64,000 bases of DNA from NCBI GenBank assembly GCA_012735135.1, contig JAAYHY010000104.1:1-64000 (forward strand), in the 5' to 3' direction. Position numbers and translations under genes: made by a program. Below are positions 10,109 through 59,901 of this stretch, in pieces. Within the stretch, counting starts at the first letter, position 1. The number at the start of each line of letters is the position of its first letter. The notes under the pieces are model-generated. The model saw only the letters and a list, made by a program, of their open reading frames with translations, did no database searches and was not told where the DNA came from. Source of the stretch: Bacillota bacterium (lineage in GTDB: Bacteria; Bacillota; UBA4882; UBA10575).

Positions 10109-10243
10109 TCTGAATTTAACCCGTTATGAAGTAAACTTGGACAAAGCAAACGAAAAACCTGCTCCGCCCAGGATTTTTTGTGGTCGGCAAAGGATGAAAG
10201 CGGGTCATATCACGTGTCCCAGTTTACCGGCGGCAGCAACTAC

Positions 10244-11251: not shown

Positions 11252-12206
11252 ACCTCCAGCAGGCTACAGTATGCGCCGGTTCAACCTCGACAAGCGGCGG
11301 TTCTTCCTGCCGGCAACGCTCCATCACCTGCGGACAACGGAGATGAAAACGGCAACCGGCCGGGGGCGCCAATAAATCCGGTGGTGTACCCGGGATAAAT
11401 GCCAGCTGATCAACCTTCTGCCGCAGGCGGGGTGTGGCTGCCATCAAAAGTTGGGTGTAAGGATGGGCGGCCCTTTGCGGCCCGTAAATCTGCTCATTGG
11501 TCCCAATCTCAACCACCTTGCCCGCATACATGACCATAATCCGGTCGGCCACTTCCGCTTCGGTAGCCAAATCATGGGTGATAAAAATGAAGGAGAGCTT
11601 TAATTGTTCCTTTAGTTGTTTTAGCAAGTTGATAATCTGGGCCTGCACCACCACGTCTAAAGCAGTGGTCGGCTCATCGCAGATGACCACCTGCGGTTCG
11701 AGGAAAAGAGCGGTGGCGATGACGATCCGCTGTTTCATCCCTCCGGAAAGTTCATGGGGATACCGGCGGAGCACATCGGCGGACAGACCCACCAGATTCA
11801 AATATTTAATAATTCTCTCCTCCGCTTCCTGCTTCGTCATCTTCCGGTGGGTAAGAATGGTTTCCATCATCTGTTTCCGGATGGTATAAACGGGAGTCAG
11901 GCAGTTCATCGCCCCTTGAAAGACCATGGCGATCTTCTCCCACCGGATCTGCTTGCGTAACTCATCCTCATTGAGCTTCAGGATATCCAAGCCGTCGAAG
12001 AGGATCTCCCCGGCGACGATCCGCCCCGGCGGGGTCGGCATATTCAAAAGGGCGGTGCCCAATGTGGTTTTCCCGCATCCCGACTCTCCGACCACCCCCA
12101 GGGTCTCTCCGGCGCGCAGGTCAAAGGAGACCCCATCAAGGGCGCGGATCACTCCTTTGCTCGTAAAATAATGCAATTTGATATTTTTGATCGCTAACTT
12201 TTCCAT
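11238..12206 (-). CDS. oligopeptide-type ABC transporter ATP-binding protein (OppD/DppD-like)
   Basis: GESGCGKTTLG, LSGGMKQRIVIA, CDEPTTALDV, C-terminal Cys motif. Confidence 0.92.
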   Translation of the reverse strand: MEKLAIKNIKLHYFTSKGVIRALDGVSFDLRAGETLGVVGESGCGKTTLGTALLNMPTPPGRIVAGEILFDGLDILKLNEDELRKQIRWEKIAMVFQGAMNCLTPVYTIRKQMMETILTHRKMTKQEAEERIIKYLNLVGLSADVLRRYPHELSGGMKQRIVIATALFLEPQVVICDEPTTALDVVVQAQIINLLKQLKEQLKLSFIFITHDLATEAEVADRIMVMYAGKVVEIGTNEQIYGPQRAAHPYTQLLMAATPRLRQKVDQLAFIPGTPPDLLAPPAGCRFHLRCPQVMERCRQEEPPLVEVEPAHTVACWRCGHE

Positions 12207-12213
12207 GGAGCAC

Positions 12214-13617
12214 CTACCTCGTTCTTAATTTTGGATTCAAGATTGTATCCATGGCAAAGCCGACAAAGGCAAAAGTCATGCCCATCAGCGCAATAAAGAG
12301 ACCCGGTGGAATAATCCACCACCATATCCCCTGTAAGACTGCTCCCCCTTGCATTGCATCATGGAGAATCTGCCCCCAGGTGACAATGGTGGCATCCCCT
12401 AACCCAAGAAGACTGACCGAAGCTTCATAGACAATGGAGACCGGAACCTGAAGCGCCATTGAGGCAAAGGCGTAGGGGATGACCTGGGGGAGCATATGTT
12501 TGAAAATGATCCGTCCGCGCGACGCCCCCAGGGCATGGGCGGCCTCCACGTAAATCTCTTCTTTAATCTGCAAGCCCATACTCCGGACGGTCCGGACGGA
12601 ACCAACCCAGAAAAAGGCGCACATCATCAGGATCATCGTCCAGATGCTAGGCTTAAAGACAGCGCTGACTACAATCATCACCGGGAGAAGGGGTATGCTT
12701 TGGAAAACTTCGTAGATCCGCATCATCACCAGATCAACAGCCCCGCCAAAATAGGCGCTGGTTACACCATAAAAAACACCGATAATCACCGCCACCGCCG
12801 AGGTCAGTAAACCGATGAGCAGGGCCCATTTCGTGCCCGCGATCACCCCGCTCCAGATATCCCGCTTGGAAGCATCGGTGCCCATTAAGCCAAAAACCCG
12901 CCCGGCGACCGTAAGGGCTGGTTCTTTCAGAAAAGCGCCGCTCCCTACGGCCACACAGGTTAACTTGATCCGGTATTCACCCTTCAGCGGCACCGGGTTC
13001 CGGAGAATCCCCGGTTCCGCCCGGGCAAAGAAGACCTCCACCGGTTTGACCGTAAATATAGAAACGCCACGGAGAACATCCGGGTCCTCGTAAGTTTTGA
13101 GAAAATCACCGACCGCGCCGGAGGCTTCCTTATCCAAGGAAAGGCGAACCGGGGCTTCACCGCTTAAGCGGATCGACTTTTTGGTCAGTTCAATGCTGAG
13201 GCCGTCGGGCCTTTCCAAATGAACAGCCAGATTAAGCAGGCCTTTCCCCGTCGCCCGCAACAGCAGATCGATCGGTGGCAGATCATACTTGTAATTATAT
13301 GTAAATACCGCCTCCACCATCTGGGTGTTGGCTGCCTTGCGCTCGCTTATTTCAGGTTTATCCAAAACCGCTTGGGGAGTGTAATCTTTCCTTGTGAACC
13401 AATTAACCCAAACCGGCGCCGCGTTTTTCGGGTTATCTTCCCAGTAGGTAATATCCCGCCACCGTCTCCCGGTCTCCGGGAAAGGGATTAACACCGGTTC
13501 CAAGATAACAATCAAAAGAAAGAGGCCGAACATGACCAAACCAACCATTCCGTACCTGACTTTACGGAACTCGCCCCAGAAATCGCGCAATGTCTCCCGT
13601 AAATCTTTCAACTTCAT
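12214..13617 (-). CDS. ABC transporter permease, OppC-like with large extracytoplasmic insertion
   Basis: BPD_transp_1 EAAHALGASRGRIIFKHMLPQ; about 200 residues inserted after TM1. Confidence 0.88.
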   Translation of the reverse strand: MKLKDLRETLRDFWGEFRKVRYGMVGLVMFGLFLLIVILEPVLIPFPETGRRWRDITYWEDNPKNAAPVWVNWFTRKDYTPQAVLDKPEISERKAANTQMVEAVFTYNYKYDLPPIDLLLRATGKGLLNLAVHLERPDGLSIELTKKSIRLSGEAPVRLSLDKEASGAVGDFLKTYEDPDVLRGVSIFTVKPVEVFFARAEPGILRNPVPLKGEYRIKLTCVAVGSGAFLKEPALTVAGRVFGLMGTDASKRDIWSGVIAGTKWALLIGLLTSAVAVIIGVFYGVTSAYFGGAVDLVMMRIYEVFQSIPLLPVMIVVSAVFKPSIWTMILMMCAFFWVGSVRTVRSMGLQIKEEIYVEAAHALGASRGRIIFKHMLPQVIPYAFASMALQVPVSIVYEASVSLLGLGDATIVTWGQILHDAMQGGAVLQGIWWWIIPPGLFIALMGMTFAFVGFAMDTILNPKLRTR

Positions 13618-43025: not shown

Positions 43026-43277
43026 TACGTGCTCAGTTACGGAATCTCCTCCAAACCCATCGGCCTCTTGGTGGTCGGTCTGATCATCGGCGTTATCTAC
43101 TACTTCACCTTTGTTTACTTCATTAAAAAGCTTAATATCCCCACGCCTGGACGGATTGAAGAAGAGTCCGGCGCTTTACTCAACTTAAGCAATCCCGAAC
43201 TCCGGGAGAAGGCCGCCGCCATCTTGGCCGCCCTGGGGGGTAAAGAAAACATCAAAGCATTGGATGCTTGTATTACC
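43026..43277 (+). pseudogene. nagE: inverted PTS EIICB segment: EIIC C-terminus, linker and EIIB N-terminus
   Basis: YVLSYGISSKPIGLLVVGLIIGVIYYFTFVYFIKKLNIPTPGR...NPELREKAAAILAALGGKENIKALDACIT: the segment missing between FID and VDNSAQ on the minus strand. Confidence 0.85.
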
Positions 43278-44093
43278 GACCTCCTCGTCGGGCACCGCGG
43301 CGTAAAGCTCTTCTTCCATCATCGCGGCGACCTGCTTCGCTAAGCGGTAAGAACTTTTATAGGTCTTTTTGATGACCGGAAGCAGTTCGTTTTTGATAGA
43401 AATCTGTTTGAGGATCCGCTCCACCGCATAACGGATATGGGAGGCGAAACGGGCGTAATCAATAGATTTACGGTCGATCTCCACCTTAAGCTCATCCTCA
43501 ATAATCTCGATGGCGGAATTGCAGAGATAAGCGTATTTGACCGTATTGGAGAGGCGGTCTTTTGTCTTCAGGGAATGGATATGCAGGGCAATAAATCCGG
43601 CCTCCTCCTCGGGAATCCGCATGTTAAGCGCTTTTTCCAACAGTTGGGTCGCTTCTTTGGCGATGGCCAGTTCTTGGGGGTATAAAGTTTCAATCTCCAC
43701 CATGAACGGGTTTTCAATCTGGTCGTTGTCTTGCAAGCGGAAAACGGTAAAGGCAATATGGTCGGTCAACCGCACGTGCATCTCTTCATCCAGTTCGCCG
43801 GTGGCGGAAGAGATCAGGTGTATTACCTCCTCGCAGGTTCCCACCAACCCATCATCGATCTCGGTGATCAATTGTTGAAAACGCCGCTTGGTTTCGGGAT
43901 TTTCGATCACAAAGACCCGTTCAAAAACGGTATCAGCCGGAATCTGATCCCCCGCTTTGGCACCGAAGCCGATCCCCTTTTTAATTAAGATCTTCTCAAT
44001 CCCTTTGTGTTGCGCTAAGACTACATTGTTGTTGAATGGTTTAAGCACGGTATAAGTGGCCGGCAAAGCTCGCCCCCCACCTTTCTTGACCAA
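43276..44093 (-). CDS. BglG/LicT-family antiterminator, C-terminally truncated in PRD2
   Basis: CAT domain VLKPFNNNVVLAQHKGIEKILIKKGIGFGAKAGD; two PRDs; homologous sequence stops at VPDEEVG where the inverted PTS segment begins. Confidence 0.85.
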
Positions 44094-44254
44094 TTCCCCA
44101 GTTTAAACTATTCATCCTTTAACAACATTATAACATACCGGTCAAAAATGCAACCCCGATCCGTCCTTCTTTTCTTCCCGACCCAAGCTTGAGTTTAAAA
44201 TTTTGTTGCCAAAAGGCCCATTCTTGAGTAAAATAAAGATAAAGAAATAATGAC

Positions 44255-44320
44255 AGGTGTGTCACTGGTAACCCCAGGCATTAACCTAACCTTATTTAAG
44301 GTTTGTGGTTAATGCCTTTT
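44255..44320 (+). promoter_or_regulatory. RAT-like antiterminator overlapping intrinsic terminator, upstream of ptsI
   Basis: AGGTGTGTCACTGGTAACCCCAGGCATTAACC overlapping AGGCATTAACC...GGTTAATGCCTTTT. Confidence 0.7.
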
Positions 44321-44346
44321 AATTTATCCGCAGGAGGTGGTTCCCC

Positions 44347-46050
44347 ATGTACACGGGTATACCGGCTTCCCCCGGGATCGCCATCGGTAAAGCCCTGGTG
44401 CTCACCAAAAAAAAGGTGGCGTCGGAGAAAAAGACCGTTACAGACGTAACCGCAGAAAAGAACCGTTTTCATCAGGCCTTAAACGCCGCCAAAGCCAAGC
44501 TGGACCAGTTAATTGGCCAGGCCTATGCGGAGCAACAAAAGGAGACCGCGGCCATCCTGGAAACCCACCGCCTCATCTTAGAGGATCCGGACCTTTTGGC
44601 TAAAGTCGAAACTGAAATCACGGAAAAAAAGGTTAATGCCGAGTTCGCCCTGGAAAAAGCCTTGGGTTTCTACATCGAGCTTTTGGCCGGGAGTGATAAT
44701 GCCTACTTTCAAGAAAGAACCGCCGATCTCAAAGATGTGCTGAGCTACGTTAATCCTTTTTTGACCGGAGAAGAAGAGATCGATCCCTTTCCCATCAAAG
44801 GTAAGTGCATTCTTGTGGCTCCCGAACTTACCCCCTCTGATACAGCCCGGCTACCGCTCAACCTGGTGCAGGGGTTCATCACCGAAAGCGGCGGCCCTAC
44901 TTCCCATACGGCAATCATCGCCCGCTCCTTGGAATTGCCGGCCGTCGTCGGGGTCGCCCGGATTACGGCCGAGGTTAAAAATGATGATTTGTTAATTATT
45001 GACGGCGGGGAGGGGACGGTCCTGGTCAACCCCGCCCCAGAAACGGTCGAAACCTACCGGAAAAAAGAAAGGGCGCTTCGCGCGGAAAGAGAGGCGCTCT
45101 CCGCCTTAAAGAACGCTCCCGCCCGGACCAAAGACGGCAAAACCATTAATCTGCTGGCCAACATCGGTGAACCCTGGGAGTTAACCAAAGCGCTGGAGTA
45201 TGGCGCCGACGGGATCGGTCTCTACCGGACCGAATATTTGTTTATGAACCGGGACACCCTGCCCACCGAGGAAGAACAGTTTGAGGCCTATAAAGAAGTT
45301 TTAACCAAGATGGAAGGCAAACCGGTCGTCATCCGGACGCTGGATATCGGCGGCGACAAAAATGTGCCTGCTATAGGGTTAGCGCCGGAGAGCAACCCCT
45401 TCCTCGGGTACCGGGCTATCCGGCTGTGTCTTGCGGACCGGAATTTATTCGTTACCCAACTCCGCGCCCTTTACCGGGCTTCCGTCTATGGTCAGCTCAG
45501 AATAATGTTTCCGCTGATCTCCAGTATTGAGGAATACCGATCCGCCGTAAAAATCGCCGGTGAAGTCCGGTTGGCGTTAATCAAGGAAGGGCGCCAGATC
45601 GGCTGCCACGTCCCGCTCGGGATTATGGTCGAGGTTCCCTCCGTCGCCCTCCTGGCTGATGTCTTCGCGAAAGAAGTGGATTTCTTCAGTATCGGCACCA
45701 ATGACCTCATCCAGTATACCTTGGCGGTCGACCGGATGAATGAACGCATCTCCCATCTATATAGCCCCTTCCACCCCGCTGTGTTGCGTTTAATTAAAAT
45801 GGTGATCGACCACGCCCGGCGGGAAGGGATCGAAGTCAGCATGTGCGGGGAGATGGCCGGCGATCCCCGTCTCACCCGTCTTTTAATCGGTCTCGGGCTC
45901 CAATCCTTTAGCGTAAGTCCCTCCTCCCTGTGGACGGTGAAGAAAGAGATCATGAAGGTGAAAACCAAACCGGCCAAAACTTTCGCCAGGAAAGTTCTTC
46001 TCCAGTCAACCGCCGCCGAAATTAAGGAGTATATAGAAACCAAAGCATAA
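44347..46050 (+). CDS. ptsI: PTS enzyme I
   Basis: GGPTSHTAIIARSLELPAVVG; DGIGLYRTEYLFM; SD GGAGGTGG. Confidence 0.96.
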   Translation: MYTGIPASPGIAIGKALVLTKKKVASEKKTVTDVTAEKNRFHQALNAAKAKLDQLIGQAYAEQQKETAAILETHRLILEDPDLLAKVETEITEKKVNAEFALEKALGFYIELLAGSDNAYFQERTADLKDVLSYVNPFLTGEEEIDPFPIKGKCILVAPELTPSDTARLPLNLVQGFITESGGPTSHTAIIARSLELPAVVGVARITAEVKNDDLLIIDGGEGTVLVNPAPETVETYRKKERALRAEREALSALKNAPARTKDGKTINLLANIGEPWELTKALEYGADGIGLYRTEYLFMNRDTLPTEEEQFEAYKEVLTKMEGKPVVIRTLDIGGDKNVPAIGLAPESNPFLGYRAIRLCLADRNLFVTQLRALYRASVYGQLRIMFPLISSIEEYRSAVKIAGEVRLALIKEGRQIGCHVPLGIMVEVPSVALLADVFAKEVDFFSIGTNDLIQYTLAVDRMNERISHLYSPFHPAVLRLIKMVIDHARREGIEVSMCGEMAGDPRLTRLLIGLGLQSFSVSPSSLWTVKKEIMKVKTKPAKTFARKVLLQSTAAEIKEYIETKA

Positions 46051-46063
46051 GGAGTGATTCGTC

Positions 46064-46327
46064 ATGCGGGAACTAACCGTGACCATTAAAACGAAAACCG
46101 GATTGCACGCCCGGCCGGCCGCCCTCCTCGTCAATACAGTATCAAAAGGAAAGAGCAAGGTAACGATCGAAAAGAACGGAAAGGAAGCAAACCTCAAAAG
46201 CCTCCTCGGTTTATTAAGCCTGGGGGTGGAAGAAAACGATACGGTCACCATCAAAGTGGACGGCAAAGATGAGGATGAGATCATCGCCGCCTTAAGCCAA
46301 TGTGCTAAAGAGAATGAACTCTGGTAG
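46064..46327 (+). CDS. ptsH: HPr phosphocarrier protein
   Basis: KTGLHARPAALLV; KSLLGLLSLGV. Confidence 0.95.
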   Translation: MRELTVTIKTKTGLHARPAALLVNTVSKGKSKVTIEKNGKEANLKSLLGLLSLGVEENDTVTIKVDGKDEDEIIAALSQCAKENELW

Positions 46328-46436
46328 CCGGAGCTGAATGGTGTCCCTTGCTCCGGTGAATCGCCTGGCGTATTCTAAAGCTCAGCTTCGTTGAAAGCGG
46401 GCAACCGCTTGATGGTTCCTCTTGAACCAAAAGCGG
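46328..46436. ncRNA. candidate structured RNA (copy 2, partial, opposite orientation)
   Basis: 46369-46420 matches the reverse complement of 22785-22836 at 49/52 positions by eye, plus shared downstream GGAGC-AGG-ACACCATTC. Confidence 0.5.
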
Positions 46437-46455
46437 CCGGCGGCGATCCCATTAC

Positions 46456-47178
46456 CTAGCCGCATTCACCTTTGAGTACCTTTTGGTTTGCCGCATGGAT
46501 CAGGCGTTCCTCTTCGGTGACGAAGACAACTTCCGTTCCTGCCTTTAAGTGGCGGAGATAATCAATGTTCCCCTCCACCTCTTCAAGAGTTAAGTTTTTA
46601 GCATGACCGGCCATCAGCAGCTGTGGCCGGTATTTTTTATACTCCTCCAAAGTCCGGAGGTAAGCGTCAAGATCCGGATCTTCCACATAAACCAGGGGCC
46701 GTTCCAGATTATCACCCACATAGAGGAGACGGTCCTCATGGTCAAAAAGGGAAATACTGTCGGCGGTATGACCGGGGCTGTAAAAGAGTTCGATCCCTTC
46801 CTCCGGAAAGAAAAGCCGCTGCTCAAAGGTGATGGTCGGTAGTCGCCGCTCTACCCTGCCCCGGCGGTATTTTCCGTATTTCGCCAACTCCTGCTCCCAG
46901 CCCGCCGCCAACAACTCCCGGCAGCGCCGGTGGCTGACCACTTCCCCTGTAAAAGCACAGTTCCCCCAGACATGATCCCAGTGAAAATGGGTATTGACCA
47001 CCATTACCTCCCGCCCTTCCGGCATATCCTGTAGAACCGGTTCCATGCTCAGGCTGCCACAGAAAGTATCGATCACCCAGACCCGCCGGGCAGATTTGAT
47101 CACGTACACAAAGGTCGCCATCGGAAGATCAGAAAAATGGTAAGCAGTCGCCCGGGTGGTTATCTTTTCTTTCGTCAA
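46456..47178 (-). CDS. MBL-fold metallo-hydrolase
   Basis: NTHFHWDHVWGN; YSPGHTADSISLFD; AGHAKN. Confidence 0.9.
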   Translation of the reverse strand: MTKEKITTRATAYHFSDLPMATFVYVIKSARRVWVIDTFCGSLSMEPVLQDMPEGREVMVVNTHFHWDHVWGNCAFTGEVVSHRRCRELLAAGWEQELAKYGKYRRGRVERRLPTITFEQRLFFPEEGIELFYSPGHTADSISLFDHEDRLLYVGDNLERPLVYVEDPDLDAYLRTLEEYKKYRPQLLMAGHAKNLTLEEVEGNIDYLRHLKAGTEVVFVTEEERLIHAANQKVLKGECG

Positions 47179-47514: not shown

Positions 47515-48396
47515 ATGAAAAACCGTGTTCATTTATGGGTCTGCCTGATCTTTACAGTAACGTTTTGTCTTATCGCGCCGGCGGCGGCAGGGGAGTTGCA
47601 ATTCTTAACTTTTCCGGCGGTGGCGCCGGTCACTGAGACAAGTCTTTCCTTACCCTTTACCCTACCGGCGTCCACCGCATCAGCCGTTAGCTTCCGGTGC
47701 TCCGCCTTAATGGATACAGCAACCGGAAACCGGATTAGTCCGGACCGCATTTCGCTCTCCTACAATCAGAAAACGGTTGGCCCCAACCAACTGCTCACCC
47801 TGACCCCGCAGCCAACGGGAGGGCCGGAAGCAGGGAGCACCCGTGAATTTGGGCTGCAGATCAATTTTCTTCCCTCCGATCCCCCGGGCGAATACGAGGG
47901 AATAATCGAAGCGGTTCTTCACCATTCAACGCAAGACACGGAACGGATCTCCCTTTGGGTAAAAACCCGGGTCTTGCCCTGGATTAAACTGGAACGAGTA
48001 TCGGGCCAGCCTTTTCCGGGCTTCGATTCTCTTTCTTCCCTTACTGAAAGCAATTTGACGATCACCGAACCACTCAAACTGTTACTTGCCTCCAACACCC
48101 ACTGGCAGCTGTATCTGAGAGTCGGGACGGCCATACCCCATCATGATCCGGAATTTCCTCTCCAGATTAGGATTGGGCGCCCCGGTAAAGCAGGGGAGGA
48201 GAAAAAAACGCTCCTGGCCAACGGCCCCGCTCAGCTGGTCGCGGCTGGCCCGCCGACGGTGGTTGGAGATGGTTTGACGCCTGCCAATTACTGGACCGAA
48301 CTTTATCTTTCCGCTTCCATTGCCGACTGGCGCCAATACCCCACCGGAAATCATCAGTTGACTTTTTACCTTTCCGGTCAGACTATCACCCCGTAA
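47515..48396 (+). CDS. exported protein, putative surface-organelle subunit (minor/tip candidate)
   Basis: Signal peptide ending APAAAGE; beta-rich; C-terminal YPTGNHQLTFYLSG resembles pilin-like final strand; first gene of chaperone-usher-like cluster. Confidence 0.5.
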   Translation: MKNRVHLWVCLIFTVTFCLIAPAAAGELQFLTFPAVAPVTETSLSLPFTLPASTASAVSFRCSALMDTATGNRISPDRISLSYNQKTVGPNQLLTLTPQPTGGPEAGSTREFGLQINFLPSDPPGEYEGIIEAVLHHSTQDTERISLWVKTRVLPWIKLERVSGQPFPGFDSLSSLTESNLTITEPLKLLLASNTHWQLYLRVGTAIPHHDPEFPLQIRIGRPGKAGEEKKTLLANGPAQLVAAGPPTVVGDGLTPANYWTELYLSASIADWRQYPTGNHQLTFYLSGQTITP

Positions 48397-48477
48397 GGGA
48401 AAACCCAGAGGTTACATACCGGTAGGTGGCGCGGATCACCGGTTTGTAATAAATAAAATAAATGCGAGGTCGATACA

Positions 48478-49299
48478 ATGAGGAAATCTCTTTCTCTCTT
48501 CCTAACCTTAACTCTCCTGATGCTCACCACCTTAGCGTTCGCCCAAAGTGTCTGGGGCAACCCGCCTCCGCCATGGTGGGATCCCCAATGGATCAATTAT
48601 GATAATCACTTGTGGGATGACGGAGCAATCACTTGGACGGAGGTCGACGAAAAACACGTCAATGTCCCCTGGATTGACCGGGATAACGCCCTTTATGACG
48701 AGAACAATCCGGAACGGGGTCAATCCGTGGAGATGACGCTCCTGACCCGGGCTTATATCCCCTGCTATCTCGAGATGCGGGTCACCGGGAACGAGGGCCA
48801 GACCACCATCCAAAGCTTCGGGCCTTTGGCAAAACCGGAAGCCGAACCCACTAGCTATATCTTAGCTTTTGATAATGAAATCGGCGGTTTTGTCGATGAA
48901 AACTGGAATTCGCTGGGGCATGGACGCAACGCCGAAATTTATCCCGGCGATTTCTGGAAAAATGTATATATCCAAGGTTGCGACATCTTTAAAGTTGAAG
49001 TTTACGCCAATGATGATTATAAGTACGAAGTACAGGCCAGCCCTCTCACCCCCTATGACGCCAATACCGAAGGGAATGCCCTTGATAGCCTTTATCTCCA
49101 GATGAGGTATAAGTTGGGTCTTTACGGGAATTTTAGCCGGACCCACACCTTTGACCGGCCGGACGAGATTGAAGAGATCGCTGTTATGGACGCCTGTGAG
49201 GAACTGACCGTTTACCACCAATTCCGGGTTCCTTATTCCCGTAACATCGCCCATGGCCGCTACGACGGAAAGGTAATCTTCCGCGCCTATACCCTCTAA
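48478..49299 (+). CDS. exported protein, putative major subunit
   Basis: Signal peptide; Trp/Asp-rich N-terminus WGNPPPPWWDPQWINYDNHLWDDG; C-terminal GRYDGKVIFRAYTL. Confidence 0.5.
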   Translation: MRKSLSLFLTLTLLMLTTLAFAQSVWGNPPPPWWDPQWINYDNHLWDDGAITWTEVDEKHVNVPWIDRDNALYDENNPERGQSVEMTLLTRAYIPCYLEMRVTGNEGQTTIQSFGPLAKPEAEPTSYILAFDNEIGGFVDENWNSLGHGRNAEIYPGDFWKNVYIQGCDIFKVEVYANDDYKYEVQASPLTPYDANTEGNALDSLYLQMRYKLGLYGNFSRTHTFDRPDEIEEIAVMDACEELTVYHQFRVPYSRNIAHGRYDGKVIFRAYTL

Positions 49300-49383
49300 A
49301 CCGCTTTGCGCTTTTGATGAAATCCGGCTGGTGTTCGCGCCGCACCAGCCGATCTTTTACTATCCCTAAGGGAGGAACGGACA

Positions 49384-50187
49384 ATGTTTAAACCATCCCA
49401 ACCCAAGTTTTTATACCGTCTGGTTACAGTAACCCTGGCCCTGGCGCTCTTCGCGTCAAGCGTTTATGGCGTCGCCCGGGTCGAACCCAGTAAATTCCTT
49501 TTTACGCTAAAACCGGGCGAACGGATCACAGAGGCGATTAAAGTCACCAATACCCAAGCGACGGTGGCGGAATATACGGCCGTCATTTATGATTGGACGC
49601 TGAACGACGAAGGCCACCTGGTAACTTCTCCCGCCGGACAACGGGCAGATACTTTAGCCGGCCTGATAAAATTTAACCCCCGCCGCTTTAAACTGGAACC
49701 AGGCCAAAGCCAGTATGTCCGTTTTACCCTGACCGCTCCCAAAGACGGCGATTGGTTGGAGAGAAGGGGGATTATCTTTTTTGAGGAAAGCCGTCCCCCG
49801 GAAGACAATGCGGTTGGCTCGACCGTCGTCATCCAAGTCGGCGCCACCGTTTATCTAAGCTTTACGGAAACGGTCAATTCTTTCCGCGCCTATGGCCTAA
49901 AAATCGAAACCGGGGAAGAAGGCCCGCCCGTTCTCCTCATTGATCTGGCCAATGAAGGGCAAGCCCATATCAGCTACCGGGTCAACTACCGGATCACTAA
50001 AGAAAGTGGCGGACTTTTCGAAGAAAACACCTCCGGGGAACAACTGATTCTGCCGGGCAGTCGATATGTTGCCCGCTTTCCCTTTACGAACACCCCGCCG
50101 GCGGGTAACTACAAAATTACGGTCAACATCAGTTTTACCGGGACAGCACGGACCCTCTCGAAAGTAGTCCCGTTTTCCATACCCTGA
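49384..50187 (+). CDS. PapD-like periplasmic chaperone
   Basis: Signal peptide; RVEPSKFLFTLKPGERITEAIKVTNTQATVAEYTAVIYDW...RFKLEPGQSQYVRFTLTAP...ERRGIIFFEE: PapD-type domain pattern, second Ig-like domain. Confidence 0.7.
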   Translation: MFKPSQPKFLYRLVTVTLALALFASSVYGVARVEPSKFLFTLKPGERITEAIKVTNTQATVAEYTAVIYDWTLNDEGHLVTSPAGQRADTLAGLIKFNPRRFKLEPGQSQYVRFTLTAPKDGDWLERRGIIFFEESRPPEDNAVGSTVVIQVGATVYLSFTETVNSFRAYGLKIETGEEGPPVLLIDLANEGQAHISYRVNYRITKESGGLFEENTSGEQLILPGSRYVARFPFTNTPPAGNYKITVNISFTGTARTLSKVVPFSIP

Positions 50188-50228
50188 GTTATGTCCTTGT
50201 GGCGGACCGGAATTAGGGGGAATCAAAA

Positions 50229-53200
50229 ATGGTAAACAAAAGCAATCATGCTTTTTGCTTTAAATCACTAAGCGCTGTTCTGATCTGTTTCTTCCTTGCG
50301 TTAGGCGCCGGAACGCAGCTTTACGGCCAAGAATCCACCCCCATGGAGACCAGCATCGCCCTGCTGGTAATTAAAGTGGGAGATAATATTTACTTCCAGG
50401 ACCCCGCCTTTGAACTTCTGGACCTTGACACTCATCTCTTAGTCCCGGTCAACCGTCTGGCAACCAGCCTTGACCTGGATCTGTCTTATCACCGGAGCGA
50501 AAAGAAACTGGTGCTTACCAATAACCTTAACCAAAAGAAAGCCGAGATCTTTTGGGAAGAGAAACTCTACCGGATCGACAACCGCCTTTTTTTAAGCAAA
50601 GAACCACCCCTTTTCTTCCAGGGGAATGTCTTTGTCAGTCTTCCTTTTCTCGCATCCTTCCTGGAGGCTGAATTTGACTGGGATTTTCGTTATCAAGCGC
50701 TTACGCTTAATGTAGAAGAAGGTTTACTTAAAGCAACGCCAGCCACGATCAGGCCGGAACTTTCGGAAAAGGCCGCCCAAAAAGAACTGCCGCCCAAAGA
50801 AGGCCCGCCCTTCGCCTTAAGTTCAGTCCGGTATAAATTCGGGCTGGAACACCGGAAGGAGGCCCCTAACGATAAGAGCCTCGACGGACTCTTTAAACTA
50901 CGGTTGGATGGCTATGCCGGAGAGTGGGCGCTTTCTGCCGCCGGTGGGGTTAGACAGGATTTTTACAACGGGGTTCTTACGCCCGAACTCTCCCTTTTGC
51001 GAGCCGAGTACCATAAAGATAATGAACTCATCATCATCGGCAATGCCGATCTTGATCTAGAGAAAACCTTCGGGAAAAAAGAGATCTGGGGCGCTTTATA
51101 TATGACCCCCGACTTCCAGTTCCGCAGGGAATTGTTTGCCTATACCGACGTGTCCGGCCCTGCGGAAGCCGGCGATCAGGTTTTACTTTATCTAAATGAT
51201 CTGCTCTGGGAGACTAAACAGTTGGATGCCGACGGCACATACCTTTTTCTTGATGTACCTTTACAGATTAACCGGGTGAATCGCCTCCGGGTGGTGATCC
51301 AAAAAGCCGACGGGGAGACTTATGAAACGATCCGTGAGGTCGCTGCTAGTCCCCGTATCTTATCGAAAGACCGGAACGAACTGACGGTCGCCACCGGTCT
51401 TTACCGGAAAAACGGCGTTAACGAGTGGGAAGGGGCTATGGTCGGCTACCGGCAACAGATCGCCTTAACGGAAAATATCACCTTTGGCCAAGAAACCTCG
51501 GTATCCGCTCCCTACATCAATTTTCCCGAATATAGCTATATCGGTGCTGACACAGGTATCGCTTTTCGGCTGAATAAAAACCTTATTTTTACCCTCGACT
51601 GGTTAATCGGGGGGGAAATTGGGAAAGAGGTCAACACCGGAATTGAATCTTCCCTTTTATACTGTTTAGAGAAGGGTTTTTTCGAAAGCGTGATCTACTA
51701 TATACCGGAGCCGGTGACCAAAGGGGTCCGCTCACAAGCCGGTCAAGGAACCAAGCTCCGTTCCGAACATGAACTCCAAAATAACCTGCTCTTCGAGGCC
51801 GAGGGGTATTTATCCAAATCCACTCCGGAATCCCCCCCCTGGTCTGCAGACGGCGTTAACCTGTCCCTGACGAAAAGATACGGCCATTATAACCAAAACA
51901 GTCTGGCCGGACAGGTAAATAAAAAGTGGTTGACCCAAGAGGTCAAGGCCGGCCACTATAAAGCAGACGTAACTAGCGGCGCCGTCAAACATACCCTCCG
52001 GGAACGGACCGTCGGCGCCAGTACGGAAGGGGAAGTGGTGAACACCAGGTATTATTGGGACAACAACGGTCCATATCGCCGGCTTAATCTAAACGTCAAA
52101 ACCGATTTGACTTTGGCTTTGACCAATAACTTCCTTTTTGGTCTGGCTTTGGATACGGTCAATACTTGGCAGGAAGAAACCTATAGAGGCTTACGCCTCC
52201 TCGGCGAAACCGACGCCAAATGGAGCTTAACCGATGATACCCTGTTGGCCGGAAATATAACCCTCGAAAGCAGCAATGACCCGCAAAAAGATCCTTCTTT
52301 TCACCTGAAAAAATTAAAAACCGGCCTTCTCTTTCAGCATTTTTTCAACCCGGAATTAAATATGTACGCCGAAGCCAGCCGTGCCCGCGAGTCGTTTCGG
52401 GTTGAAGCGAACGTTTATCGCTATACCACCGCCCGCCTAGGGCTCAATTGGCATACCACCGACCGGACCGGAAAGATCGGGGGGCAAATCGGTTACCGCT
52501 CGCCGGTGGGAAGCCGGGTATTCCCCCAGTGGTCTTACCGTTTAAGCTTGGAGAAATACCTGCCTTCCGCCTTTTTAGTGGAATTGACCCTTGAACGCCT
52601 TTTTGATGGAATCTGGGATCCGAATCCGGAGGATGTGATCCGTTTCACGGTCAGCCGTGCCCTTAGTTTTGCCGACGGGAAGATCAAACCTTACCGCTAT
52701 ACCGAAGAAGATCTGTCCGCACGGGTCGGCGGGGTGGTCTATTTGGATATCAACGCCAACGGCCGGTTTGATGAAGGAGACAAAACCCTCGCCGGAATTA
52801 AAATTCTCGCCGATGGACGGCTTGCCATCTCCAATGAGAAGGGGGAATATATGTTCTCGAATTTACCCCCCGGTATTTACCGCGTGGATTTTCATCTTCC
52901 TTCGTTGCCGGCAAATTACACCCCCGTCACCGAGCCCCAGTTAATTCGGCTCCGCGCGCAAGAAAACTTCTTTATCGATTTCGCGGTGACTGTTAATGGC
53001 TCCGTCAGTGGTCTTGTTTTCCATGACATCAATGCCGACGGACAATTGAACCCCGGTGAACAACCTTTATCCTGGGTCGGTGTGATCCTTGATGAGGGCC
53101 GGCAAAAAATCTTTACCGGTGCGGACGGCACTTTCTACTTCGAAGGGGTCTCCCTGGGCGCCCATACCATTACCCTGGACCCGGAGAGTCTCCCTGCCGG

Positions 53201-53297
53201 TCTCACCATTTCCGGCCATGATCTAAAAACCGTAATCCTAACGGAAGAGGAGTTGGATGTGGCGGATCTTCTTTTCCCGTTGGTCAAAACCGATTAG
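50229..53297 (+). CDS. usher-like outer-membrane beta-barrel protein with N-terminal stalk-like and C-terminal SdrD-B/CarboxypepD_reg-like domains
   Basis: Usher plug-like FAYTDVSGPAEAGDQVLLYLNDLLWETKQLDADGTYLFLDVPLQINRVNRLRVVIQ; many amphipathic strands; VVYLDINANGRFDEGDKTLAGIKI and VFHDINADGQLNPGEQPL repeats. Confidence 0.7.
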   Translation: MVNKSNHAFCFKSLSAVLICFFLALGAGTQLYGQESTPMETSIALLVIKVGDNIYFQDPAFELLDLDTHLLVPVNRLATSLDLDLSYHRSEKKLVLTNNLNQKKAEIFWEEKLYRIDNRLFLSKEPPLFFQGNVFVSLPFLASFLEAEFDWDFRYQALTLNVEEGLLKATPATIRPELSEKAAQKELPPKEGPPFALSSVRYKFGLEHRKEAPNDKSLDGLFKLRLDGYAGEWALSAAGGVRQDFYNGVLTPELSLLRAEYHKDNELIIIGNADLDLEKTFGKKEIWGALYMTPDFQFRRELFAYTDVSGPAEAGDQVLLYLNDLLWETKQLDADGTYLFLDVPLQINRVNRLRVVIQKADGETYETIREVAASPRILSKDRNELTVATGLYRKNGVNEWEGAMVGYRQQIALTENITFGQETSVSAPYINFPEYSYIGADTGIAFRLNKNLIFTLDWLIGGEIGKEVNTGIESSLLYCLEKGFFESVIYYIPEPVTKGVRSQAGQGTKLRSEHELQNNLLFEAEGYLSKSTPESPPWSADGVNLSLTKRYGHYNQNSLAGQVNKKWLTQEVKAGHYKADVTSGAVKHTLRERTVGASTEGEVVNTRYYWDNNGPYRRLNLNVKTDLTLALTNNFLFGLALDTVNTWQEETYRGLRLLGETDAKWSLTDDTLLAGNITLESSNDPQKDPSFHLKKLKTGLLFQHFFNPELNMYAEASRARESFRVEANVYRYTTARLGLNWHTTDRTGKIGGQIGYRSPVGSRVFPQWSYRLSLEKYLPSAFLVELTLERLFDGIWDPNPEDVIRFTVSRALSFADGKIKPYRYTEEDLSARVGGVVYLDINANGRFDEGDKTLAGIKILADGRLAISNEKGEYMFSNLPPGIYRVDFHLPSLPANYTPVTEPQLIRLRAQENFFIDFAVTVNGSVSGLVFHDINADGQLNPGEQPLSWVGVILDEGRQKIFTGADGTFYFEGVSLGAHTITLDPESLPAGLTISGHDLKTVILTEEELDVADLLFPLVKTD

Positions 53298-53730: not shown

Positions 53731-54387
53731 TTAGCACCCCAAAAGGTGACAAAATTCTTCCGGGCAAAAAACAGCAAGTGTCGCTGCTCTCCAGGTAACA
53801 CGGGGGTTATCGGCAGCGGTCCCTACCCCGATGACCCGCATACCGGCAGCCAAGGCTGCTTCCACCCCGGCATCGGCATCTTCAACAACAACACAATGGG
53901 AGGGGGCAACCCGTAGCCTCTCCGCCGCCAGCAAAAAAACTTCCGGGTCAGGTTTGCTTTTCGTAAGGTCATTCCCATCAACAACCACATCAAAGTAGTC
54001 TTTTAGACCAATCCGTTCCAGAATTAACGGTGTATTCTTACTGGAAGAACCAACTGCAATCTTGATCCCCTTTTTTCTTAGCTCTGTCAAGATTACCATA
54101 ACTCCGGGTAAAATACAATCGGGTGTCAACTCCTGAACAAACTGACGATAATAAGCGTTTTTCCGATCGGCCAGCGCTTTGATCTCCTCCGGATAATAGG
54201 TCCGTTCCGCCTTTTCCAAGATAATCGCCAAAGAATCCATCCGGCCGACACCCCGTAACCGCCGGTTAATCTCCGCATCGAAATAGATGCCTTCCTCCCC
54301 GGTCAATCTTTTCCAGGCCCGGTAATGGCAATCATCCGTCGCCACAATAACCCCATCCAGATCAAAAATAACCGCTTCCGTCTTCAA
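53731..54387 (-). CDS. pgmB: beta-phosphoglucomutase (HAD)
   Basis: AVIFDLDGVIVATDDCHYRAWKRL; GSSSKN; KPDPEVFL. TTG start after GGAGGATTGAC. Confidence 0.9.
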   Translation of the reverse strand: MKTEAVIFDLDGVIVATDDCHYRAWKRLTGEEGIYFDAEINRRLRGVGRMDSLAIILEKAERTYYPEEIKALADRKNAYYRQFVQELTPDCILPGVMVILTELRKKGIKIAVGSSSKNTPLILERIGLKDYFDVVVDGNDLTKSKPDPEVFLLAAERLRVAPSHCVVVEDADAGVEAALAAGMRVIGVGTAADNPRVTWRAATLAVFCPEEFCHLLGC

Positions 54388-54389
54388 AG

Positions 54390-56777
54390 TCAATCCTCCT
54401 CCGGTCCACCTTGATCTAGCGGCCCATGCCAAGGTTCCTTACCGAGCATTTTTTCCTCGGCAAAGTGATAGATGACGAGAGGATCGCCCTGTAGCAACCG
54501 GTAAGCGGCCCCGTTCCGGTCCACAGTTACCATGATTTTCCTCCCCCGGTAGCTTACCTGGAACCTGTATCCTTGCCAATGGGCGGGTAAATAGGGGGCA
54601 AAACATAAGCGATCTCCGCAAACCCGCATCCCGGCAAAACCATAGACCACACCCATCCAAGCTCCCCCCATGCTCGCCGTGTGAATTCCATCTTTCGTAT
54701 TGCCATTATAATCATCCAGATCCAAACGGACCGTCGCCCTAAAGTAGTCATAAGCCTTCCCATGATAAGCAGGAAGGCGGCTGGTAGTGCCGATTTCAGA
54801 AGCGACAATACTGAAGATCGCGGGCGAAAGGGAGGAGTCATGGGTGGTCAGGGGTTCATAATAGTCGTAGTTTCGTTTCTTCTGGTCGGCGGAGAAATAA
54901 TGGCCAAGCAAAAACAAGGCCAGTACCACATCGGCTTGTTTGCAGACTTGGGCCCGGTAAAGGAGTAAAGGATGGTAATGAAGGAGTAAAGGAAACTTCT
55001 CCGGTGGAGTCGCTTCCAGATCCCAAACGGGTTTATCTAAAAAGGTATCATCCTGGGCCAAGATCCCCCGGCTCGGATCATAGGGAAGATACATTTCTTC
55101 CCCTGCTTTCACCCAGAGGCCAACCTCTTCCGCCGTCAGACCGATTTTAGTCGCTAACCTCCGGTAAACAGCGGGAGCCTCTTCCTCTAGCCAGATGGCG
55201 ACACGGGCGGCAAAGGCCAGATGTTCCCTGGCCATCAGATTGGTGTAACAGTTATTATCCACCAAAGCCGTGTATTCATCAGGTCCGGTGACAACGTTGA
55301 TACAGAACCGTCCATCTTTACGGGGGTTAAAAAAACCCACCGCCATCCAGAACCGGGCGGTCTCAAAGAGAATCTCCGCGCCATAGTCCGTTAAAAAATC
55401 CCAGTCTCCCGTGATCTCCACATATTTTTGGATGGCATAGGCGATATCGGCATTGATATGATACTGGGCGGTTCCCGCCGGAAAGAAGGTGGAACACTCC
55501 GCGCCTCCGATCGTGCGCCATGGGTAAAGGGCCCCCCGGGAGAGACCAATCTCCCAAGCCCGCCTGCGGGCTTGGTCCAATGTACGGTAGCGGTAAAGTA
55601 ATAAGGCTTTAGCCACGGCTGGATTGTAATTGAGAAAGAACGGCATGATGTAGATCTCCGTGTCCCAGAAATAGTGCCCTTCGTAGCCTTCGCCGGTCAA
55701 CCCTTTGGCGCCGATGCTGGTGAAGCCGTCGGTTCCAGCCGCCTGGAGCAAGTGAAAGGCATTAAACCGCAGGCCTTGTTGTACATGATCGTCCCCTTCT
55801 ATTTCAATGTCGGCCTGTTCCCAAAAGCCGTCGAGAAAAGCTTTTTGTTCTTGACACAAATACGCAAAGCCGTCCCTTTCCGCTTCTTTGGCCCAAGTTT
55901 CGGCCGCTGTCATCAGATCGGCCCCGGCCTCCCCCTGGCGGGCAGTTAAATAGGCTAAATATTTGTAAAGCCGTACCGGTTTCCCCGCTTCCGCGGCAAA
56001 TTCATAGCTGGCCCCGACCATTAAAGGCCGGACAATCGTCTCCACCTTACTCAAGGGGCCGTCGGTTTGGTTGCACATCGCACAAGCCAAATAAAGACCG
56101 GATTTCTTCGTCCTTTGCCAGAGGATTCCCCCTCTGGAATCGATCTTGCGCTTTTCCACTTCCAAACTTCTTCCTTTTAGAGCTGAGCCGACCCGGGGAT
56201 CCTTTTTCATTTCCAGATTCCGTACGTCGCCATCAAGGGCGGAAAAGAGGCGGATCTTTCCACAAAAATTGAGGGGGGTTACTTCATAAGCGATGGCGGC
56301 CACCGGTTTCCTGGTTAATGAGACTAACCGGGTGATCGCCAGCCTCACCTCGCGCCCAGCCGGCGACCGCCATACCAAAGCACGGCGTAAAACCCCATTT
56401 TTCAGATCCAGTGTTCTCCGGTAAGTCAGCAGCTCACCGGTGAAGATCTGAAACTCCTCCTCTTCCAGATAAAGTTTGATCAATTTCCCGTTGGTAATGT
56501 TCAGCATGGTCTGGCTTTTTTCCGGATAACCGAAGGCGGCCTCCGGATATTTCAGATCTCCCGTCTCATAAAAGCCATTAATATAAGTCCCTTCCACGCT
56601 GGTTCCAGCCGGTCCGTTATATCCTTCCTCAAAATTACCCCGCATGCCCAGATAACCGTTGCCCAGTGAAAAAATGGTCTCATTCCGTAAATTATAAGCC
56701 GGTAAAAATTGCTCTTCGCTAACTTCCCACGGGGACACAGGATAAATCGGCGCCCCTTCTTTCGGTCGCTTTTTCAA
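54390..56777 (-). CDS. GH65 family disaccharide phosphorylase
   Basis: FSLGNGYLGMRGNFEEGY; GEGYEGHYFWDTEIY; VTGPDEYTALVDNNCYTNLMA. Confidence 0.92.
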   Translation of the reverse strand: MKKRPKEGAPIYPVSPWEVSEEQFLPAYNLRNETIFSLGNGYLGMRGNFEEGYNGPAGTSVEGTYINGFYETGDLKYPEAAFGYPEKSQTMLNITNGKLIKLYLEEEEFQIFTGELLTYRRTLDLKNGVLRRALVWRSPAGREVRLAITRLVSLTRKPVAAIAYEVTPLNFCGKIRLFSALDGDVRNLEMKKDPRVGSALKGRSLEVEKRKIDSRGGILWQRTKKSGLYLACAMCNQTDGPLSKVETIVRPLMVGASYEFAAEAGKPVRLYKYLAYLTARQGEAGADLMTAAETWAKEAERDGFAYLCQEQKAFLDGFWEQADIEIEGDDHVQQGLRFNAFHLLQAAGTDGFTSIGAKGLTGEGYEGHYFWDTEIYIMPFFLNYNPAVAKALLLYRYRTLDQARRRAWEIGLSRGALYPWRTIGGAECSTFFPAGTAQYHINADIAYAIQKYVEITGDWDFLTDYGAEILFETARFWMAVGFFNPRKDGRFCINVVTGPDEYTALVDNNCYTNLMAREHLAFAARVAIWLEEEAPAVYRRLATKIGLTAEEVGLWVKAGEEMYLPYDPSRGILAQDDTFLDKPVWDLEATPPEKFPLLLHYHPLLLYRAQVCKQADVVLALFLLGHYFSADQKKRNYDYYEPLTTHDSSLSPAIFSIVASEIGTTSRLPAYHGKAYDYFRATVRLDLDDYNGNTKDGIHTASMGGAWMGVVYGFAGMRVCGDRLCFAPYLPAHWQGYRFQVSYRGRKIMVTVDRNGAAYRLLQGDPLVIYHFAEEKMLGKEPWHGPLDQGGPEED

Positions 56778-56882
56778 GATGCTTCTCCTTTGCCATGCTG
56801 ATTAGTGGTTAACCATTCGGGTTAGGTATCCTAGGGGACGGGTCCGGATTGACCACCCGGACCCGTTTCTCCCCATTGGGTT

Positions 56883-58088
56883 TTATCGCTTGTTATCTTC
56901 GATATACTTCGCCCATTTTTCCAAAGTCGGTTTGACCGGCTTACCTTCGATGACACATTCCCGGAAAGCTTCGTTCAATGCCTTTTCCACCGCGGAGTAG
57001 TAGACCAGGTTCGGCCGGGCTTCGGCGTGGGCCAGGGCTTCATTGATCGCGTCAAAGTACGGTTGTTGCCAGGCGGCTACTTTTCCGTAGGCATCGCTCC
57101 GCACCGCCGGCCAACCATTATGCGTCGTCAGGACCTCCTGAACTTCTTTGGAGATCAAGTATTTAGCCAGCTCAATCGCGAGCATTTTGTTGGGAGCGCC
57201 TTTCGGAATGCCGATTACTTCCCCGCCAAGGACGTGCGATTCTTTCACCGGACCACGCCAACCGTGGTAGGCTAAAACTTCTTTCTTGCCGCCATCCTTA
57301 ACAATGACATTCATCCCAAAAGGCCAGTTTTGGCCCAGATAAACCGATTCGGTGGCAATATGTTGGTTCATAAAGTTCCAATTGGCTGTCTTCGAGTCGG
57401 GGGAGAGATAAGGCCAGAGTTTTTGGAGGAACATGAAAGCTTCAAAACAGCCTTTATCATTCAACACCACCGGATCCCCGCCGGCGCTGCGGCAGAAATC
57501 AAAGAGATGGGCTGCGGTGCAAGACGAAAGGTCGGCTTTGATCGCCACCCGGCCGACGCCTTCTTTTTCATAGAAAAACTTCGCCACTTCGAAGAGTTGA
57601 TCCCAATTGGCCGGGGGCTCCAAACCATACTGGGCAAACTTGGCCGAATTGTAGAAAGCAATCTCCACATTGGGACGGTAAGGCAAAAAGTATAATTTTC
57701 CGTCAAATTCACCCACTTCCACCAGGGAAGGATAGACGGTGGCCGGGATCAGGGAACGAAAGGCGCTGAGATCTTCCACTAAATCTTTCTCCACCAAAGT
57801 AGCCAAACGCATATTATCCTGGGCAATCAGGTCAATATCCATCCGGTTGGCCCGGACCCGGGCTTCCAGAATTTTTTCGGTGTCCTGCGCTTCTGCTTGG
57901 TAGGCTTCGATTTTGACGTTATGCTCTTTTTCAAAAGCGGGGAAGACCAACTCCCGCATAACCTTCCATTCTTCTTCCGCCAGTCCCATAATCACCTTAA
58001 TACTTTTGGGCGCCGCCGCGGTCACAAGGGAAAAGACCAAACTGAGCAGCGCCAAACCGAACAGGAAGCGAAGGGTTCTTTTCATCAA
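56883..58088 (-). CDS. sugar ABC transporter substrate-binding protein (family 1)
   Basis: Signal peptide without lipobox Cys (FSLVTAAAPKSIKV); GKLYFLPYRPNVEIAFYN. Confidence 0.9.
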   Translation of the reverse strand: MMKRTLRFLFGLALLSLVFSLVTAAAPKSIKVIMGLAEEEWKVMRELVFPAFEKEHNVKIEAYQAEAQDTEKILEARVRANRMDIDLIAQDNMRLATLVEKDLVEDLSAFRSLIPATVYPSLVEVGEFDGKLYFLPYRPNVEIAFYNSAKFAQYGLEPPANWDQLFEVAKFFYEKEGVGRVAIKADLSSCTAAHLFDFCRSAGGDPVVLNDKGCFEAFMFLQKLWPYLSPDSKTANWNFMNQHIATESVYLGQNWPFGMNVIVKDGGKKEVLAYHGWRGPVKESHVLGGEVIGIPKGAPNKMLAIELAKYLISKEVQEVLTTHNGWPAVRSDAYGKVAAWQQPYFDAINEALAHAEARPNLVYYSAVEKALNEAFRECVIEGKPVKPTLEKWAKYIEDNKR

Positions 58089-58162
58089 TCGGATCCTCCT
58101 CTATTATTTTTTGATCTTACTTACCCATAACCGGTAAAAACTTTTTTTCCGTGTCCACCTCC

Positions 58163-59038
58163 TCAATACTTTATAGCGCCGGAGAGATAATCATTTCGCA
58201 GGAAGTTTTGCAGAACAAAAGTAACCACCATAACCGGGATCGTTAAGAAAACTGCATAGGCGGCCGATTCAAACCAGTTTCCCCGGCGCACGTAATAATA
58301 GGTTTTGATCGGAAGGGTCGACTCGGCCAGACAAAGGTAAACAGCATAGGTGAATTCATTCCAAGACTCCAGCCAGCATAAGATACTGGCCGCCGCGATC
58401 CCGGTCAGGGAGAGCGGTAAAACCACCTTAGCCAAGGCCTGTACCTTATCACACCCGTCCACCATGGCTGATTGTTCCAGATCCTTGGGAATTGAATCAA
58501 AAGTTCCCGTTAAGATCCAGGCCATCAAGGGTAAAACCTTGATCAGATGGGCCAGGATCAAGCCCAAATTGGTGTCGACCAACCCCCAGCGGACAAAGGT
58601 AACCGAGATCGGCAGGGCGATTCCGACCTCGGGAAACATCCGGGTGGAAAAGATCGCGAGCAAGACGCCATATTTTATCTTCCGTGGCAAGCGGGAGATG
58701 ACATAAGCCCCCGGAGCGGCGATAATTATACCGGAAAGAGCGACAAAAGTGGCCACCACTATACTTTTCCAGAGAGGGACCCAGATGTGGCCGGCGGCCA
58801 AAACTTTGCGCCAATGGCTCCAAGTAAAATTCTTAATTAAAAAGGGCGGGTGTTGCGTGAGAATATCTTGGGGCGCGCTGACGGAGATCTTAATCAGGAG
58901 CAGAATCGGGGCCAGGATAAAGAAGATCGTCAGCGCAATAAAGAGGACCCGCATACTTCGGCTAAAGGCCCGGTAAAACTTTTTCCGATTCCTGGTTCTC
59001 TCCACCAAGGCAAGGTCCATCCGTTTCACTGTTTTCAT
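58163..59038 (-). CDS. carbohydrate ABC permease (MalG-like)
   Basis: EQSAMVDGCDKVQALAKVVLPLSLTGIAA. Confidence 0.92.
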   Translation of the reverse strand: MKTVKRMDLALVERTRNRKKFYRAFSRSMRVLFIALTIFFILAPILLLIKISVSAPQDILTQHPPFLIKNFTWSHWRKVLAAGHIWVPLWKSIVVATFVALSGIIIAAPGAYVISRLPRKIKYGVLLAIFSTRMFPEVGIALPISVTFVRWGLVDTNLGLILAHLIKVLPLMAWILTGTFDSIPKDLEQSAMVDGCDKVQALAKVVLPLSLTGIAAASILCWLESWNEFTYAVYLCLAESTLPIKTYYYVRRGNWFESAAYAVFLTIPVMVVTFVLQNFLRNDYLSGAIKY

Positions 59039-59901
59039 TGGTCAACCTCCCTTGAACCAACCGTTAAAATATAACCGAAGACAAACAGGGCGATCACGAT
59101 TAACAAAATGGTGGAAGCCGCGCCGGAGGCGTGGATATTATTGTAATCAAAATATTCACTATAGGCATAGGTTCCAAGAAACATCGTGTTCCGCCCGGCA
59201 AGCACCATCGGTAATTCAAAGATACGGAAGGCGTCAATCGCCCGTAAGATCAGGGCGATGGTAAAGAAGGGTTTAATCAGAGGCAAAGTTATCCGGAAAA
59301 AATGTTGCGCCGGGGAAGCGCCGTCAATTGCCGAAGCTTCGTAAACATCGGCCGGAATACTCTCCAAACCGGAAAGGAGCAGAATGATCACCAGCGGCGT
59401 AACTTTCCACATATCGGCAACGGCAACCATAAATAGGGTCCGGAGGCCTCCCTGCGCCCAGTCAATAGGTAACTTAATCAAACCTAGCCGGTAGAGGAAT
59501 TCATTTAGGTATCCGTTCGAACTGAAAATGTATAACATAACTACCCCGGAGACAATCGTCGGGACCCCCATCGGAATCATGGTAATCGCCCGGAAAATGC
59601 CGCGGAACCTGCTTTTGGTGGTTAAAAGCAAGGCAACAACCATCCCGGTACTCATTTCCAACGCCAAACCGATGAACGTGACCAGAATGGTATTCTTCAA
59701 AGCATCACCAAACTTACGGTTACCCACAATCACCCGGTAGTTTTCCAGGGTTGGAAAGGCGCCGCTAACCGGATCCTGAAAGCTATAGAAGATACACTGT
59801 AAGACCGGATAAAGGGTAAAACCGAGGATAAAAAGGAGGAGCGGTAAGACCATCACCATCTCCAGTTTATGGTGTTTAAAAAGGTTTCTTAAGGTTGACA
59901 C
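59035..59901 (-). CDS. carbohydrate ABC permease (MalF-like)
   Basis: YEASAIDGASPAQHFFRITLPLIKPFF. Confidence 0.92.
   Translation of the reverse strand: MSTLRNLFKHHKLEMVMVLPLLLFILGFTLYPVLQCIFYSFQDPVSGAFPTLENYRVIVGNRKFGDALKNTILVTFIGLALEMSTGMVVALLLTTKSRFRGIFRAITMIPMGVPTIVSGVVMLYIFSSNGYLNEFLYRLGLIKLPIDWAQGGLRTLFMVAVADMWKVTPLVIILLLSGLESIPADVYEASAIDGASPAQHFFRITLPLIKPFFTIALILRAIDAFRIFELPMVLAGRNTMFLGTYAYSEYFDYNNIHASGAASTILLIVIALFVFGYILTVGSREVDQ

Follow-up and report, generated by a model that had tools for sequence, protein, structure and literature searches.

A locus of four genes in a 64,000-nucleotide stretch of a Bacillota genome (contig JAAYHY010000104.1 of assembly GCA_012735135.1; hereafter the window) very probably specifies an entire chaperone-usher (CU) pathway of divergent type, belonging to a diderm, Hydrogenispora-like member of the Limnochordia. 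The reading is supported directly by conservation of the gene order, by export signals, by remote homology of the chaperone and the usher to known proteins, by the position of the usher plug and by co-occurrence with Omp85. CU systems have been listed for Proteobacteria, Cyanobacteria and Deinococcus-Thermus only (PMC4654587), and our literature searches on CU pathways in diderm Firmicutes and on DUF4402 found no description of such a system. The original prediction, made from the DNA letters alone, had proposed a divergent outer-membrane fibre or adhesin export system at this site; the analysis supports that proposal with the corrections given below, assembly itself being presumed.

The four open reading frames (ORFs) all lie on the + strand and, as had been described, are co-oriented and closely spaced, with intergenic gaps of 81, 84 and 41 bases. 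Subunit 1 (47515..48396, 293 residues) is an exported two-domain beta-rich protein and a candidate tip or two-domain fibre subunit, and subunit 2 (48478..49299, 273 residues) is an exported beta-rich protein and the candidate main fibre subunit. They are followed by a PapD-like periplasmic chaperone (49384..50187, 267 residues), assigned by HHalign and a phylogenetic tree, and by an usher-like outer-membrane protein (50229..53297, 1022 residues), assigned by HHalign and Foldseek. A signal-peptide-like N-terminus can be read from the sequence of each of the four proteins. The PapD and Usher models of Pfam and NCBIfam match none of them even at E 10, subunits 1 and 2 have no Pfam or NCBIfam match whatsoever, and a phmmer search of the PDB sequences with the chaperone and the usher returned only the SdrD part and chance matches. 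Because Pfam and NCBIfam leave the CU label unsupported, the family names used here rest on remote-homology tests.

For the chaperone, a family profile built from 15 members was compared with one built from ten known chaperones (FimC, SfmC, YadV, YehC, YfcS, EcpB, EcpE and three archaic chaperones, signal peptides included), and HHalign matched the two at 98.4% over 207 columns. Once signal peptides were removed, single archaic chaperones still scored 95.9, 95.8 and 74%, EcpB 79% and EcpE 57%; the controls FimH and EcpD gave 0.1%. By this remote homology 49384 appears to be a PapD-family chaperone, as originally suggested, with two immunoglobulin (Ig) domains, and the single-chaperone scores point to a kinship on the non-classical side. 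Its second domain belongs to a family with the motif N-x-G-x-x-H-x-R, which the archaic Variovorax chaperone carries as N-N-G-N-A-H-V-R. At residue 197 (window positions 49972-49974) the window protein has a serine where nearly all relatives carry the motif arginine.

The usher assignment was approached through both profiles and a structure model. Profiles of 13 usher family members and of seven known ushers aligned in HHalign at 98.2%, plug on plug, across 663 columns, and the window segment GDQVLLYLNDLLWETKQLDADGTYLFLDVPL falls on the plug of the known ushers; the controls LptD, BamA and FhuA reached at most 0.7%. Used alone, the plug scored 40-41% against single FimD and Deinococcus ushers and about 91% against relatives from Polaromonas and Pseudoalteromonas. 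An AlphaFold2 (AF2) model built from a 14-sequence alignment is of low confidence (predicted local distance difference test score 67, predicted template-modelling (TM) score 0.47). Its DSSP assignment gives six long strands (residues 195-292, 50811..51104), then a plug-like beta domain of six short strands that coincides with the aligned plug (residues 303-372, 51135..51344), then approximately 22 further predicted barrel strands (residues 384-815, 51378..52673, with low confidence at 450-540). Six strands ahead of the plug is the classical usher layout. When the model was compared with the PDB by Foldseek, FimD and PapC chains took the first 18 places (E 4.3e-27 to 2e-10), the best of them covering 1020 columns; the first non-usher match followed at E 1.9e-7. 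Together, alignment and model suggest that 50229 is a large plugged outer-membrane usher with its plug after strand six, in line with the originally predicted usher-like barrel and its plug-type segment. The Pfam model Usher (PF00577) found nothing in the host genome, in a search that detected the E. coli positive control, and gave zero above-cut-off matches in 399 Bacillota genomes; because profile comparison does detect the relationship, we read this silence as the limit of the model's reach.

The same two proteins might instead belong to a WxL/DUF916-like complex that binds peptidoglycan or the cell surface, the 267-residue protein being a relative of the WxL-interacting proteins and the 1022-residue protein an SdrD_B adhesin or a porin. 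The sub-threshold matches of the chaperone are indeed Ig/Fn3-like only and include fn3_5 (E 5e-5) and WxLIP_PGBD (E 0.007; 16.9 bits, below the Pfam cut-off of 27.3), and SdrD_B and stalk domains are frequent in Gram-positive surface proteins. However, such a complex would not account for a long series of amphipathic strands interrupted by a plug, for FimD and PapC as the top structural matches or for HHalign matches to CU proteins with low controls. No LPXTG or WxL features were seen in these proteins, and the association with Omp85 described below is strong. We therefore reject this explanation as highly improbable and continue with the CU assignment.

The flanks of the usher barrel had been singled out as unusual. 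At the N-terminus, the match to a stalk or copper-amine-oxidase-N-like domain is genuine: Cu_amine_oxidN1 (PF07833) passes its cut-off at E 3.8e-8 over residues 67-153 (50427..50687), recurs weakly or clearly in relatives, and lies where ushers have their chaperone-binding N-domain, of which it may be a replacement or a diverged form; HHalign found no match between the usher family and single usher N-domains. At the C-terminus, two SdrD_B/CarboxypepD_reg-like modules follow the barrel (module 1, residues 832-925, 52722..53003; module 2, residues 926-1020, 53004..53288), with SdrD_B (PF17210) matching in two stretches at E 4.6e-16; the second stretch also matches PF13715 and is conserved in A2. 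The presence of these modules was thus correctly predicted, but their description as unusual does not hold. They occur in the ushers of Orenia, UBA4881 and UBA4882 and in proteins of Polaromonas, Pseudoalteromonas and Deinococcus, and even the E. coli alternative usher EcpC has a CarboxypepD_reg match over its C-terminal domain (E 1e-4). Because they recur in such distant relatives, SdrD_B-type C-termini are typical of the branch and not a local oddity.

A CU pathway presupposes an outer membrane, and the linked subunit, chaperone and usher genes are found in an outer-membrane bacterium. The host genome (2.56 Mb in 161 contigs, 99% complete) contains an Omp85/BamA homologue (E 1.5e-28). Its close relatives are Bacillota metagenome-assembled genomes (MAGs), including Hydrogenispora sp., and its Hydrogenispora, UBA4881 and UBA4882 relatives would place it in Limnochordia, a class counted among the diderm Bacillota (PMC11448272). 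Across the 399 Bacillota genomes, the chaperone profile matched at E 1e-6 or better in 60 and Omp85 in 102. Omp85 was present in 55 of the 60 chaperone-positive genomes as against 47 of the 339 chaperone-negative ones (odds ratio 68, Fisher p 4e-33, a value that overstates the association because the sampled genomes are not phylogenetically independent), and in 16/16 genomes with an usher match covering the barrel. Five genomes (G048, G051, G235, G299 and G382) have a chaperone-profile match without an Omp85 match; these may be incomplete genomes, or monoderms in which the profile picks up Ig-like surface proteins.

Linkage of the genes in relatives, which had been named as a prediction of the hypothesis, was found and extends to another order, the Halanaerobiales. 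A simple protein search recovered the usher in 13 of the 50 good genomes in the first sample of relatives. At least ten genomes with varying flanking genes share the arrangement subunit 1, subunit 2, chaperone, usher; it is retained in loci L021-L029 and, in part, on contigs of split assemblies. When the chaperone alignment was run against 85,462 species genomes, it yielded 19 loci, all in Bacillota, among them a complete four-gene block in the cultured Orenia metallireducens (Halanaerobiales). A scan of viral contigs with the usher found nothing. Compared with the nearest relative, L021, the ratio of nonsynonymous to synonymous substitution rates (dN/dS) was 0.32 for subunit 1, 0.24 for subunit 2, 0.18 for the chaperone and 0.22 for the usher; all four genes are clearly under purifying selection. 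Since their order is kept amid different flanks and their dN/dS is low, the four ORFs are not chance occurrences. One UBA4882 MAG carries an extended cluster (L051, 8358-16587) with two chaperones, a second two-domain protein and two short subunit-2-like proteins that lack the long N-terminal segment.

The candidate subunits were examined by alignment. In 19 aligned subunit 2 proteins, down to 19% identity, a glycine stands exactly at position -14 from the C-terminus in 19/19, and every one of them shows the pattern G-x-Y-x-G in the C-terminal strand (14 residues, 49255..49296 in the window). Pilins characteristically carry a glycine at -14, and in most of the archaic SCPU subunits compared a G-x-Y-x-(D) motif stands at -13. 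In its AF2 model, subunit 2 forms a beta-sandwich in the C-terminal half and is not confident in the N-terminal half; the model, only partly confident, does not establish the incomplete Ig fold that had been expected of the subunits, although the C-terminal strand is pilin-like. In relatives, too, the block opens with subunit 1, each half of the ten aligned family members ends in a G-x-Y/H-type strand, and HHalign found no match between these halves and subunit 2. Of the two, subunit 2 is probably the principal component of the fibre, and subunit 1, with its two domains, a tip or otherwise specialised subunit.

According to the proposed mechanism, which resembles pilus assembly in E. coli, Sec would export both subunits together with the chaperone. 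In the periplasm, the two-Ig-domain chaperone 49384 would supply each incomplete subunit with a strand before handing it to the plugged 1022-residue outer-membrane barrel 50229. There, the N-terminal segment of the next subunit would displace the chaperone strand, and a linear fibre would extend through the barrel to the cell surface. Donor-strand exchange, the roles of the subunits, fibre formation and an adhesive function are steps that we infer. An unlikely alternative is a CU-derived adhesin secretion device through which proteins reach the surface singly or in short complexes, with no polymerisation of a fibre. It would fit a locus that has only two subunit genes, whose fibre is a prediction from genes and for whose subunits no homology to known pilins could be detected. 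Such a device would, however, leave the retention of the pilin-like C-terminal strand with its glycine at -14 in every one of the subunit 2 proteins unexplained, as well as that of the chaperone, the plug and the subunit gene order, and members of the wider branch (L107, L111) have several small subunits. Fibre assembly by a CU pathway thus remains the favoured explanation.

Several results weigh against this explanation. Among the chaperones, single classical proteins score 0-3% against the family profile by HHalign without signal peptides, and 49384 is assigned to the PapD family by profile comparison. The carboxylate anchor of archaic chaperones consists of a domain-1 arginine and a domain-2 arginine and tyrosine (Arg89, Arg174 and Tyr196 of CsuC; PMC4654587). 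The domain-2 arginine is present in relatives, Ser197 takes its place in the window protein, the tyrosine is not conserved and is leucine, valine or isoleucine across the family, and a basic residue, 128, lies close to the domain-1 arginine position in an uncertain register; for these reasons the anchor appears partly different. Among the ushers, single classical proteins match weakly (0.3-60% probability by HHalign), and because the model is of low confidence and its Foldseek TM-scores are about 0.3, neither the closed 24-strand barrel geometry nor the strand number is established. For the subunits, the Foldseek search with the subunit 2 model returned generic beta-sandwiches of low TM-score and no pilin, and HHalign comparisons of both with SCPU, DUF4402, FimA and EcpA gave nothing significant, the scores against the SCPU set (PF05229) being 3% and 16%, with no Pfam SCPU match. 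Lastly, LptD was looked for in the host genome and not found.

Beyond the four genes, translations read by eye suggest that the flanks (window positions 43185-47178 and 53731-59901) encode phosphotransferase-type and metallo-hydrolase-like proteins on one side and a set comprising a sugar phosphorylase, a phosphoglucomutase and an ATP-binding cassette sugar transporter on the other, and an Rfam scan of the window found no RNA family. The same genome carries a second CU-like locus (L107, G000:C79:5000-22232; locus positions 7239-12958) with several small exported beta proteins. It includes a chaperone-like protein of 270 residues (11617-12429; A8 hidden Markov model, E 2.6e-19) and, on the opposite strand, an 893-residue SdrD_B-tailed protein with an Ig/NEW3-like N-terminal part. 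This locus type is also found in L108, L109, L112, L114 and L115 and on Deinococcus plasmids (L061, L065).

To place the locus among CU systems, a tree of 33 chaperones was constructed. The window family (A, support 87/89), a group of Bacillota and Deinococcus proteins (B, 99/96) and a Polaromonas/Pseudoalteromonas group (C, 100/99) come together at 89/93, apart from the classical (100/100), alternative (100/99) and archaic (73/71) chaperones; given the long distances and the lack of a known root, we regard A+B+C as a grouping and not as a proven clade. The branch is tied to the PapD family by the Polaromonas chaperone, which passes the PapD_N (PF00345) cut-off (25.3 versus 23 bits) and adjoins a large SdrD_B-tailed protein. 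On plasmid 2 of Polaromonas sp. JS666 (L062, 4160-9501), DUF4402 proteins adjoin this PapD_N-positive chaperone and an SdrD_B/CarboxypepD_reg protein with an usher-like plug match, which suggests that DUF4402 is a pilin-like subunit family. These observations lead us to propose, as somewhat more likely than not, a further major CU lineage whose ushers have SdrD_B-type C-termini and whose chaperones form a group of their own. It would span diderm Bacillota, Deinococcus and some Proteobacteria, and would have been overlooked because it lies beyond the reach of the Pfam and NCBIfam models. In Bacillota it would track the outer membrane, and may therefore be older than the disappearance of this membrane from monoderms. 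For Limnochordia and Halanaerobiales, a CU branch would mean possession of a known class of surface fibre. If correct, it would also offer a separate lineage in which to compare the evolution of strand donation, and a gene marker for the outer membrane in Bacillota, where the diderm-to-monoderm transition is debated. The whole branch, including the Deinococcus and Proteobacteria loci, is now annotated as hypothetical or carboxypeptidase-like.

Archaic (sigma) systems such as Csu of Acinetobacter, represented in our comparisons by annotated SCPU-chaperone-usher operons of Deinococcus taeanensis, Variovorax and Burkholderia, share with the window locus the order of subunit, chaperone and usher genes, a chaperone profile likeness of 74-96%, the N-x-G-x-x-H-x-R motif and a G-x-Y C-terminal strand in the subunits. 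In contrast to them, the window locus has no match to PF00577, PF13953, PF00345 or PF05229, its 1022-residue usher has a stalk-like N-domain and two SdrD_B modules, its subunits are unrelated in sequence and its chaperone sits on a separate branch. The alternative (alpha, CS1/Ecp) systems resemble it in the CarboxypepD_reg match of the EcpC C-terminus and in the 79% score of EcpB, whereas the window usher has no TcfC/CooC_C match, its chaperone groups elsewhere and EcpC fails to align with the barrel profile (0.2%). Classical systems (FimC/FimD) share the plug, which aligns to that of FimD, and FimD and PapC are the best structural matches; they differ in their single chaperones (0-3%), in the PapC_N and PapC_C domains that the window usher lacks and in their C-terminal domains. 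Also related are the systems of Polaromonas JS666, Pseudoalteromonas Bsw20308 and the Deinococcus plasmids, annotated as 'hypothetical', 'fimbria/pilus periplasmic chaperone' or 'carboxypeptidase-like', which differ from the window locus in their other N-terminal domains and subunits (DUF4402 in Polaromonas). As in the window, they combine a chaperone-like protein, a large SdrD_B-tailed protein and small exported beta proteins; their chaperones score 96-99% against the window family by HHalign and fall in the same chaperone group, and the Polaromonas and Pseudoalteromonas barrel and plug score 90-96%.

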